Shown here in pieces: positions 5,242-64,000 of a DNA stretch of 64,000 bases. Origin of the DNA: Tritonibacter litoralis (GTDB lineage: Bacteria > Pseudomonadota > Alphaproteobacteria > Rhodobacterales > Rhodobacteraceae); assembly GCF_009496005.1 (NCBI RefSeq), contig NZ_WIBF01000001.1, forward strand, positions 372,001 through 436,000, read 5' to 3'. Under the pieces are notes generated by a model that made no database searches, had not been told where the DNA came from, and was given only the letters and a program-made list of their open reading frames with translations. A program made the position numbers and the translations under genes. Positions within the stretch are counted from its first letter, which is position 1, and each line of letters begins with the position of its first letter.

Positions 5242-6465
5242 GTGCCCCAATCAAAACACTCCATCGGCAAGACCGAGCTGACCGCTATGGTCGCTTTGAG
5301 TTTTGCGCTCATCGCCTTCTCTATCGACGCGATGCTTCCCGCTTTGCCTCAGATCGCGACCGAGCTGTCGTCGCAAGATCCAAACAAAGCCCAGCTGGTA
5401 TTGTCGACATTCCTTTTAGGCATGGGGATCGGATTCTTCTTTGTCGGTCCGATTTCCGACGCGGTTGGCCGACGCCCAGTCTTAATCGGCGGCGCTCTTC
5501 TCTACGCAGTGGCGGCCTTGTTGGCCGCGTTAAGCAACTCTCTGGAAGTCCTTCTGTTGTCACGATTTTTCATGGGTGTCTGCGCTGCTGGTCCGCGGAT
5601 TGTGGGTCTGGCTGTGGTTCGTGACCTGTTCAAAGGGCGCGATATGGCTCAGGTTGTCTCCTATGCCGTAATGATATTCACTCTTGCCCCAGCCGTTGCG
5701 CCGGCCGTAGGCGCCGCAATTTTGTTGTTTTCTGGATGGCGAAGCATCTTTGTGGCGTTTTTCATATTTGCAGTTGTCCTGTTGGCCTGGGTTGGCGGTC
5801 GCCTGCCAGAAACACTAACACGGGAAAAGCGGGCGCCAATGCGACTGTCCTCGCTCATTTCAGCCTCACAAGAGGTATTCTCTAATCCAGTTGCGCGCAC
5901 GTCGATGGTTCTCCAATCGCTGATAATCGGCATGCTCTTTGCCATGCTGACCTCCGTGCAGCAGATCTACGGTGAGATTTTTGGCCGTGCTGAGAGCTTT
6001 CCATATTGGTTTGCGATAGTCGCTTTGGTCAGCGGCGTGGGCAGTATGGCCAACGCTAAGTTAGTGACACGCCTAGGGATGCGGGTGATTATTTCCTTTG
6101 GGCTTGCCGTACAAACCTGTGTCAGCCTGTTGGTTCTGACCCTCAGCTTGGCAGTGGCGCCTGAACAGATGCCATTTGCACTGTTTGTTATCTGGCAATG
6201 TACCGTCTTTTTGATGATAGCAACATCAATGGGCAATCTAAATGCAATGGCAATGGAACCTTTGGGTCATATCGCGGGTCTTGCCGCCTCATTGATGTCT
6301 GCGATTTCAACGGTTTGCGGAGTGGTCATTGCGACACCGATTGGACAAATGTTCGACGGCACCCTGCGACCAATTTCCGGCGCGCTGTTTGTCATGGCTT
6401 TGGTGTCATGGCTGGTTATGCGCGGGCTCAACCGAAACGAAGCAACCACAGCCGCGGCGGAGTAA
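5242..6465 (+). CDS. MFS multidrug exporter, Bcr/CflA type
   Basis: About 407 residues with twelve predicted membrane helices. The first half carries the Bcr/CflA signatures: SIDAMLPALPQIA in helix 1, PISDAVGRRPVLI after helix 2, and RFMGVCAAGPRIVGLAVVRD in the helix 4/5 region. Such carriers export drugs, dipeptides or similar compounds using the proton gradient. The GTG at 5242 follows an AGAGA purine stretch and is preferred; an in-frame TTG at 5218 would add eight residues. It stands alone between the synthetase unit and convergent mfd. Substrate unknown. Confidence 0.88.
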   Translation: MPQSKHSIGKTELTAMVALSFALIAFSIDAMLPALPQIATELSSQDPNKAQLVLSTFLLGMGIGFFFVGPISDAVGRRPVLIGGALLYAVAALLAALSNSLEVLLLSRFFMGVCAAGPRIVGLAVVRDLFKGRDMAQVVSYAVMIFTLAPAVAPAVGAAILLFSGWRSIFVAFFIFAVVLLAWVGGRLPETLTREKRAPMRLSSLISASQEVFSNPVARTSMVLQSLIIGMLFAMLTSVQQIYGEIFGRAESFPYWFAIVALVSGVGSMANAKLVTRLGMRVIISFGLAVQTCVSLLVLTLSLAVAPEQMPFALFVIWQCTVFLMIATSMGNLNAMAMEPLGHIAGLAASLMSAISTVCGVVIATPIGQMFDGTLRPISGALFVMALVSWLVMRGLNRNEATTAAAE

Positions 6466-62124: not shown

Positions 62125-63528
62125 ATGCGAGACATAGAAGAATATTATTCCGAGATGCCGCTGGCTGAATTGACGGCGCTTGCTCGGATCTCTTCCCAAT
62201 TGGGATTTGAAGTCGTTGATGTTGCAGGGTTTCTGGACCAAACAGAAGCGCACTCCAAAGAGCAACGCAATGCAGTTTCCCAGCTTACGCAAAACTCAGG
62301 CCAGATAACACAGGCCAATTCACGTATGGCGGAGTCGATTCGCACCTTGAGTCAAACGGCCGAGGAAACATTGGTTACCGTCAGCACGTCCGCATCCAGC
62401 ATGCGAGAGAACAGCGTCGAAAGCCAGAAGATCGCAAAATGGGTTCAGACCCTAGCCGTACGCACCAAACACATCGAAGAAACCCTTGTGGCGATGCAGC
62501 GTGACAATGCGCAGATCACATCCATTGCAAGTCAAGTGAACATCCTCGCCATCAACGCCAAAATCGAGGCTGGGCGCGCAGGTGCTGCCGGGCGCGGGTT
62601 TGCGGTCGTCGCCGAAGCCATTAACGAGCTTTCCAAACGCACGGGAACAGCTGCAGCCGACATTAGCGACAATATCGACACTATGGGCGATTGGCTTAAA
62701 AACCTGAGCGTCGAGGCCCGCGATATCGGTCAGTCCGCCGATGAAGTCCTCACACAGTCGCAAAGCATCGACGACTCTCTGGCCGATATCGAAGAACACG
62801 CACAAACAGTGCAAAAGCAGACAAACCGGATCGCATCCGAGTCCGACACAGCCCAGTTCGCGCTGGAAGGGTTCGGAGAGGGTTTGGCGCTGATCGACAC
62901 CACATCATCGCAATCCTTGCAAGGGATCCAAACGGCACGGGCCCGCAGCGACAGTCTGATTGACTCCTCTGAGGCCCTGCTGCAAGGGATTGTCTCATTG
63001 GGCGGTCAATCCAGCGACAGCATGTTCATTGATTTTGTTCAGACCAAAGCCCAAGAGATCGGAGAGATCTTTGCCGAGGCGCTGCTTTCTTCTGACATCC
63101 GCCAAGAAGAGCTGTTTGATCGCAACTACAAACCAATCCCCAATTCCGACCCTCAGCAATTCATGGCAGGCTGTACGCGTTTGACGGATTCCACCCTGCC
63201 TCCGATCCTTGAATCCGCGTTGGAACTTGATCCGCGCGTGGTGTTCTGCGCCGCCGTCGACATAAATGGGTATCTGCCCACCCACAATCAGAAGTTCTCA
63301 CAGCCGCAAGGCTCGGATCCGGTCTGGAACGCCGCAAACTGCCGCAATCGCCGAATCTTTGATGACCGGGTGGGTCTAAAAGCCGGGCAAAATCTCACCC
63401 CGTTTTTGATGCAGGTCTATCGCCGCGATATGGGCGGCGGTGAGTTCGCCATGATGAAAGACCTGTCAGCCCCAATTTACGTGAACCAACGCCATTGGGG
63501 CGGGCTGCGTCTGGCCTTTAAGATCTAG
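62125..63528 (+). CDS. Soluble methyl-accepting chemotaxis protein with C-terminal sensor
   Basis: 467 residues without membrane segments. Residues about 40-280 form the coiled-coil signalling domain; its tip reads SIASQVNILAINAKIEAGRAG then GRGFAVVAEAINELSKR, the chemoreceptor hairpin with some drift from the usual E-A pattern. Residues about 320-467 form a C-terminal domain with DINGYLPTHN, NCRNRRIFDDRVGLKAGQN and DMGGGEFAMMKDLSAPIYVNQRHWGGL, a recurring PAS/Cache-like module of cytoplasmic receptors. Ligand unknown. It would signal to CheA/CheW. ATG at 62125. Confidence 0.88.
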   Translation: MRDIEEYYSEMPLAELTALARISSQLGFEVVDVAGFLDQTEAHSKEQRNAVSQLTQNSGQITQANSRMAESIRTLSQTAEETLVTVSTSASSMRENSVESQKIAKWVQTLAVRTKHIEETLVAMQRDNAQITSIASQVNILAINAKIEAGRAGAAGRGFAVVAEAINELSKRTGTAAADISDNIDTMGDWLKNLSVEARDIGQSADEVLTQSQSIDDSLADIEEHAQTVQKQTNRIASESDTAQFALEGFGEGLALIDTTSSQSLQGIQTARARSDSLIDSSEALLQGIVSLGGQSSDSMFIDFVQTKAQEIGEIFAEALLSSDIRQEELFDRNYKPIPNSDPQQFMAGCTRLTDSTLPPILESALELDPRVVFCAAVDINGYLPTHNQKFSQPQGSDPVWNAANCRNRRIFDDRVGLKAGQNLTPFLMQVYRRDMGGGEFAMMKDLSAPIYVNQRHWGGLRLAFKI

Positions 63529-63531
63529 GCC

Positions 63532-63572
63532 ACAAAAAACCGCCGCATCCCGGGGCACGGGTATGCGGCGGT
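63532..63572 (-). terminator. Hairpin terminator read on the minus strand
   Basis: ACCGCCGCAT (63539-63548) pairs with ATGCGGCGGT (63563-63572), with an inner CCCG/CGGG extension. On the minus strand it is followed by six T, so it should stop transcripts coming from the right, such as that of the small gene at 63713-63835. Confidence 0.82.
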
Positions 63573-63712
63573 CAGTCATGCGTCCGGATGCGGAACCCAG
63601 CAACACGCGGCAGATCATGAGGCGATAGCCTGGATGCCAATGGCACCCCAAAGTTCGGGACAGGAACAGGTGTTGCCGGCATCGGACGCAGGTCAGGAAA
63701 AGGGTATCGCGA

Positions 63713-63835
63713 TCAAAGCAATGACGGCAAATGCAGGGCGGCGACCAACATCACAACAAGGGCTGCGGCGCCAAAAGCGTCCTGGAGCAGTGTGCTGTGT
63801 GTGTTCTCAACAGTTTGTTTCAACTGAGCAATCAT
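63713..63835 (-). CDS. 40-residue small membrane protein with LexA-type box upstream
   Basis: Not reported as a long ORF but well supported: the ATG at 63835 is preceded by CCAGGAGGCTCCG, an ideal ribosome binding site. The product starts MIAQLKQTVENTHS, then LLQDAFGAAALVVMLVAALHL forms one membrane helix, ending PSLL. The N-terminal half is amphipathic. A GTTC-N7-GTTC element lies 78-92 bases upstream on the coding strand. The pattern recalls SidA of Caulobacter, a 29-residue SOS-induced inner-membrane division inhibitor; no sequence identity is claimed. Confidence 0.72.
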   Translation of the reverse strand: MIAQLKQTVENTHSTLLQDAFGAAALVVMLVAALHLPSLL

Positions 63836-63912
63836 CGGAGCCTCCTGGTCATGTTCTGCGTTCTACGTCGCTTTGTTGCCCCTTTGTTCTCATGATTCCG
63901 GAACGAAGTAAA

Positions 63913-63927
63913 GAACTTTATGAGAAC
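63913..63927. promoter_or_regulatory. Alphaproteobacterial LexA-type box (GAAC-N7-GAAC)
   Basis: GAAC at 63913-63916 and GAAC at 63924-63927 with 7 bases between. This direct repeat is the known LexA operator of alphaproteobacteria. It lies upstream of the small membrane protein gene (-) and could also serve a gene beyond 64000 on the plus strand. Confidence 0.65.
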
Positions 63928-63941
63928 AAAAAATCAAAAGA

Positions 63942-63956
63942 GAACATTTGGAGAAT
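63942..63956. promoter_or_regulatory. Second, imperfect LexA-type half-box pair
   Basis: GAAC-N7-GAAT, one base off the consensus, placed 29 bases from the first box. Two boxes would suggest control of both directions. Confidence 0.35.
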
Positions 63957-64000
63957 TTCACTTAGCCAACTGAGATCAATCGGATCGCTTCATCCTGCCG

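Follow-up and report, generated by a model that had tools for sequence, protein, structure and literature searches.

Introduction

Small membrane proteins that block late steps of cell division after DNA damage were described in Caulobacter, Bacillus, Staphylococcus and Mycobacterium with FtsW as a common target, and in several groups such single-helix SOS division inhibitors act on FtsW, FtsI or FtsN (PMC4211646, PMC13396833). In the alphaproteobacterium Caulobacter, SidA is a LexA-controlled inner-membrane protein of only 29 amino acids (PMC4211646, PMC12700426). The LexA motif of this system is GTTC-N7-GTTC, and Caulobacter SOS genes with GTTCttgttatGTTC exist as well (PMC12700426). YneA of Bacillus, SosA of Staphylococcus and ChiZ of Mycobacterium are likewise small, single-helix and damage-induced division inhibitors, YneA acting through FtsW, and SulA of E. 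coli acts on the Z-ring (PMC13396833). Moreover, E. coli encodes the SOS-controlled single-helix inner-membrane peptides TisB and DinQ, of which DinQ was shown to contain a single transmembrane segment and to depolarise the membrane (DinQ: PMC3567139). For Dinoroseobacter, LexA sites were predicted at lexA, recA and other genes; the sections of this study at hand name no small gene of the kind reported here, and recG is not mentioned in its main text (PMC6473078).

Here we describe a gene for a 40-residue, putatively LexA-controlled, predicted membrane protein at the edge of a stretch of 64,000 nucleotides from Tritonibacter litoralis (referred to as the window). It can be likened to SidA by description, and the motif type at its promoter is that of the Caulobacter LexA system. 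It differs from SidA in its length of 40 amino acids, its position after recG and the presence of two operators. In YneA and ChiZ a LysM domain is located on the outer side of the membrane, whereas the small protein stops a few residues past its helix. With TisB and DinQ it shares the proposed SOS control and the single helix; unlike in these peptides the helix half is uncharged, and the gene is widespread, single-copy and chromosomal. With SulA it may have a physiological role in common, the two proteins being unrelated. The small protein looks like a separately arisen, new SOS-induced small membrane protein. A literature search yielded no published description of the gene, and a term search of a proteogenomics paper on Epibacterium mobile (PMC6308992) yielded nothing of use on it.

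Results

A conserved short gene downstream of recG

The gene is located on the minus strand at 63713-63835, stop codon included, and starts with ATG. It is placed between recG, the stop codon of which lies at 63962, and a convergent gene on the plus strand (62125-63528) encoding a chemoreceptor signalling-domain protein of 467 amino acids. The initial annotation had proposed a short minus-strand gene with a perfect ribosome binding site and its own terminator, and all three features are borne out: an AGGAGG sequence (63841-63846, minus strand) precedes the ATG by 5 nt, and an intrinsic terminator at 63532-63572 (minus strand; -26.1 kcal/mol, z -4.6) ends in a U6 tail on the gene strand, a similar GC hairpin with T-run being aligned in all five relatives compared.

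Upstream on the same strand, the 3' end of recG occupies 63962-64000 and the gene continues past the window (L002 5963-8053; NF008164, 1103.5 bits), followed beyond the window edge by a ligA-like gene and by ctrA, the gene of a cell-cycle regulator (L002 10429-11148, minus strand). The names recG and ctrA are based on profile matches and that of the ligA-like gene on reading of the sequence. The suggestion that the small gene might sit beside imuA/imuB/dnaE2 or lexA is thus wrong. The 3' end of ctrA lies approximately 2.4 kb upstream of the recG start and 4.6 kb from the small gene. On the downstream side, only 15 of the 80 named loci contain a relative of the chemoreceptor-like gene, and a tie between this gene and the small gene was rejected on these grounds.

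A single-sequence search of 101 genomes resulted in matches in 43, all of them among the 61 genomes of the Rhodobacteraceae/Roseobacter group and none among the 40 genomes of other families. A profile built from 25 homologues matched 341 of 394 genomes of the window's family, a set comprising nearly one genome per genus, and among the matches listed the gene is single-copy in all but two genomes. The same profile matched 4/289 genomes of a class-wide sample, all four within the Rhodobacteraceae/Roseobacter group. The named records with the most similar RecG belong to Epibacterium, Tritonibacter, Leisingera, Phaeobacter and Ruegeria, on which the assignment of the family to the Rhodobacteraceae/Roseobacter group is based. 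Named carriers include Phaeobacter, Ruegeria, Leisingera, Roseobacter and Sulfitobacter. The gene had been put forward as a new candidate in the Roseobacter group; it does occur in that group, but its distribution extends over the family instead of being limited to one strain.

The conservation concerns the gene together with its position and its control region. In 80 named recG loci, the ORF was found in 77, the first operator in 76 and the second operator (GAAC-N7-[GC]AAC) in 76, so that both the ORF and the box proposed initially are conserved across the family. The profile missed 53 genomes of the family; 20 of these were taken, and 16 of the 20 gave a full-length recG match. Just 3' of recG, a hydrophobic ORF of 38-44 amino acids together with at least one operator is present in 10 of these 16 divergent loci; two further loci contain an operator only, and the remaining four neither operator nor ORF. 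Outside the family the pair of box and ORF is absent from all 67 recG loci compared (any box in 2/67; three more stretches were left out for being too short), which further distinguishes it from SidA. There was no match to the small protein in plasmid and phage collections, and a mobile origin was rejected on these grounds. Within the genomes searched, the distribution of sequence matches thus restricts the small gene to one bacterial family.

Codon comparison of 17 same-genus sequences revealed pN<pS in 136 of 136 pairs (mean pN 0.19, mean pS 0.68), with the greatest variation at the third codon positions (37 of 40 columns). By this measure the small ORF is under purifying selection, and the sequence evidence as a whole indicates that the 40-residue ORF is almost certainly a real gene.

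Two LexA-type operators at the promoter

The initial annotation had interpreted a GAAC-N7-GAAC box upstream of the gene as a LexA operator. This box, here operator 1, reads GAACTTTATGAGAAC on the plus strand (63913-63927) and GTTC-N7-GTTC, GTTCTCATAAAGTTC, on the gene strand. In the window the pattern GAAC-N7-GAAC occurs twice compared to 1.85 expected, i.e., at chance level, the other match (5617-5631) lying inside a 415-aa ORF resembling a transporter. The significance of operator 1 derives from its conservation across relatives and not from the count in the window: 54 of 55 loci contain GTTC-N7-GTTC no more than 160 nt ahead of the ORF, the 55 being the best-scoring loci of the single-sequence, family and class searches after removal of four duplicates and a subset of 341. 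The one exception, L059, has a spacing of N6 rather than N7 in operator 1.

Beyond the features proposed initially, which included neither recG upstream nor the family-wide distribution, a second operator, GAACAAAGGGGCAAC, was found at 63875-63889 (minus strand), overlapping the promoter-like region. Its second half-site is CAAC in the main group, the window included, and GAAC in several divergent members. The sequence GAAC-N7-GAAC at this position in the divergent loci L194, L197, L200 and L205 supports the view that the CAAC version is an operator as well. The distance between operators 1 and 2 is exactly 23 bp at 75 of the 80 named recG loci. The promoter-like pair (63884-63912, minus strand) consists of TTTACT (63907-63912) and GAACAA (63884-63889) separated by 17 bp. 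Its columns are gap-free and conserved in the 54 loci with constant spacing and show poor agreement with the sigma-70 consensus; a scan of the small-gene promoter for this consensus found none. Outside the operators the leader is poorly conserved in the 55-locus alignment.

The operators were compared with those of recA and lexA. LexA and RecA were found in 15/15 genomes each, and both genes carry GAAC-N7-GAAC in all 15, the window's own genome being included in each case. A matrix was trained on the 30 recA/lexA sites, none of them from the small gene, with training scores of 15.4-31.1. With this matrix, positions 63912-63930 (operator 1, score 18.4) and 63872-63890 (operator 2, score 16.1) outrank all other window positions tested, and the background, comprising 127,162 positions, reached at most 10.8. 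A weak third LexA-like site, AGAACATTTGGAGAATTTC, is located at 63941-63959 on the plus strand (score 9.7, background tail 1.6e-5). The recA box of the own genome reads GAACAAGAGGCGAACAAAGC, that of the small gene GAACAAAGGGGCAACAAAGC; on the GAAC strand, the first spacer base of operator 1 is T, compared to A or G in the recA/lexA sites. Furthermore, the recA promoters contain, beside the GAAC box, an element [AG]ATGTTC in 14 of 15 genomes, in the form AAATGTTCYY in 8 of 15. The operator reading and the link to the SOS response proposed initially are thereby upheld at the sequence level, with two conserved LexA-type operators that match those of recA and lexA within the same genomes, and the small gene is very probably under LexA/SOS control.

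In the aligned promoters, GTTC half-sites are located at about -20, -10, 0 and +11, followed by TTTACA, 17 bp and GAGAACAAAGnnGCAACA; this final portion corresponds to GAAC-N7-CAAC, the second operator with one altered half-site. The window's own promoter contains both operators and lacks the -10 half-site. In many relatives the stretch upstream of operator 1 thus contains GTTC half-sites at intervals of 10-11 bp, an arrangement that might accommodate a row of LexA dimers; in L059 the spacing is N6/N6 instead of N7. The array pattern (at most one mismatch) occurs no more than once per genome and in 26 of 61 genomes, the window's own genome not included. Of these 26 genomes, 24 belong to the family. 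According to its coordinates the match coincides with the small gene in 22 of them; in G018 it is situated 3' of recG ahead of a divergent homologue, and the remaining family match is that of G035. The two matches in other families look like chance.

Properties of the encoded protein

The initial annotation had also predicted one membrane helix. The AlphaFold2 model, which consists of a single helix spanning residues 2-39 (mean pLDDT 84), agrees with this prediction, as does the charge-free C-terminal half. A charge-free hydrophobic segment, predicted to be transmembrane, covers codons 20-38 (63722-63778, minus strand) and directly follows the conserved Asp19. D19, G22, L26, L34 and P37 are invariant across 25 aligned homologue rows. 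All 77 selected named homologues lack charged residues C-terminal of the conserved Asp, and the part N-terminal of it has a net charge of 0 to +3. The filter used for their selection required a hydrophobic stretch, the motif D-x(2-3)-G, a Pro and a length of 38-42, and the universality of those features is thus partly built in. The charge distribution and the hydrophobic segment fit a protein that spans the inner membrane once and has its N-terminus inside. Based on composition and helix prediction, the small protein is very likely a membrane protein. None of the 25 family members had a match in Pfam. Membership in a known protein family was rejected, a match to a lectin reaching E 0.094 and 12.1 bits compared to a cut-off of 300; one of the known-family searches used the ORF lacking its first codon.

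Proposed mechanism and alternative explanations

The data suggest the following model. LexA would sit on the two operators flanking and overlapping the promoter and keep the small gene off. Upon DNA damage, active RecA would induce the self-cleavage of LexA, and the 40-residue inner-membrane protein would be made. It would insert with its basic N-terminal part inside, one transmembrane helix and a very short C-terminus outside. By way of its helix the protein would most likely dock on a machine of the inner membrane, the best candidate being the late division complex FtsW/FtsI/FtsN. The docked protein would delay septation during DNA repair, like SidA in Caulobacter. By analogy to the described inhibitors, we assign a probability of about 0.5 to the small protein acting as a SidA-like division inhibitor. 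Somewhat less probable, and to be taken as tentative, is the full reading that a doubly LexA-repressed, recG-linked 40-residue membrane protein constitutes a family-wide, unrecognised damage checkpoint arresting division, with an origin independent of SidA, YneA, SosA and SulA.

A vacancy for such a role is suggested by the SulA model PF03846, which had no match in 61/61 genomes searched (37 of the family, the own genome included), E. coli being the only match among 14 control genomes; as SulA was not found, the role of an SOS division inhibitor would be left vacant. Moreover, approximately 97% of the Caulobacter SOS promoters carry one LexA box (PMC12700426), and in comparison the conserved double operator suggests that the product is harmful when expressed and must stay off.

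Tight double-operator control of a harmful product would also suit the main rival, which comes next after the division inhibitor and which we regard as rather unlikely. It holds that the gene encodes a LexA-controlled membrane peptide like TisB or DinQ, which causes a drop in membrane potential and ATP together with slower growth or a change in the behaviour of the nucleoid or of recombination, the divisome not being targeted. Size class, single helix and SOS operator are the same. However, TisB and DinQ belong to the type I toxins, which are paired with an antisense RNA (PMC3567139), and in Rfam no match near the gathering score was obtained for L002 5400-6200 (801 bases; best E 0.23), although an antisense RNA of an undescribed kind may be present. 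The poor conservation of the leader outside the operators, the uncharged hydrophobic half in all 77 selected homologues, the single copy in nearly all family matches listed and the lack of matches in plasmid and phage collections also argue against such a peptide. Many small single-helix proteins regulate larger membrane proteins, and the small protein could likewise be a LexA-controlled, non-toxic helper that modulates another membrane system after damage, such as a transporter, a protease or a signalling kinase, e.g., of the CtrA pathway. The distance of 4.6 kb to the 3' end of ctrA would be in line with the latter; recG is nevertheless the sole conserved partner gene identified, and the rarity of the chemoreceptor-like gene at the named loci (15/80) speaks against a partner on the downstream side. 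A helper function is therefore considered less probable still than a TisB/DinQ-like one.

Both of these explanations accept LexA as the regulator. The boxes could instead be read by another regulator binding direct repeats one helical turn apart, of the OmpR type, CenR or CtrA, for which the GTTC half-sites every 10-11 bp in many relatives (columns -20, -10, 0 and +11) and the N6/N6 spacing at the single locus L059 might be quoted. This is very improbable in view of the recA/lexA matrix, which puts both sites at the top of the tested window, and of the similar [AG]ATGTTC element beside the GAAC box of the recA promoters in 14 of 15 genomes. The CtrA motif, TTAA-N7-TTAA, does not fit the conserved promoter columns. 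The CenR motif is TGA-N8-TGA (PMC9275681), whereas the conserved columns are, by eye, GTTC/GAAC repeats. On this comparison CenR and CtrA were set aside as improbable regulators of the small gene. Finally, a chance ORF next to a chance box in the intergenic region 3' of recG would agree with the frequency of the box pattern alone, which is at chance level in the window; the conservation of the protein, of both operators, of their spacing and of the synteny refutes this explanation, leaving it a negligible probability.

A division inhibitor of the SidA kind would be of interest in these organisms. Phaeobacter, Ruegeria, Leisingera, Roseobacter and Sulfitobacter are widely studied marine bacteria, and the literature searched holds no description of how these genera halt division after DNA damage. 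Since it concerns one very small, conserved gene with a fixed position and LexA-type operators, the proposal can be tested directly in cultured genera. If true, it would represent another, apparently independent recruitment of small membrane proteins for SOS control of the cell envelope. Moreover, given its double operator and its likeness to recA, the promoter could be considered as an SOS reporter in the Rhodobacteraceae/Roseobacter group.

Further LexA-like sites and minor elements

In the window's own genome the extended pattern GAAC-N7-GAACAWA has 11 matches compared to 6 for the reversed control. These adjoin the small gene, lexA, recA, a Y-family polymerase gene (IMS, ImuB kind), an MmcB-like gene, a PA0069-type radical SAM gene, an ORF matching the C-terminus of an error-prone polymerase and others, 4 of the 11 being without a clear SOS link. 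The site L307 (G000:C1:525036-525053) is a LexA-like box between the radical SAM gene of the PA0069 family and a divergent gene resembling a cobalamin-binding protein. At L311 (G000:C12:232538-232555) a LexA-like box precedes an ORF of 136 amino acids which matches only the end of an error-prone DNA polymerase (profile positions 943-1039) and is possibly a dnaE2 remnant or the result of a wrongly chosen start.

At the small-gene locus, pairing of GTTCTCA with TGAGAAC into an RNA stem was rejected, as changes in one arm are, by eye, unmatched in the other arm. A 16-base element, TGTTCCTGTCCCGAAC (63653-63668, minus strand), is located in the 3' untranslated region of the small gene. Of the 80 named recG loci only 3 contain it; it is identical in the near relatives L004-L006 and L008 and carries a one-base deletion in L007.
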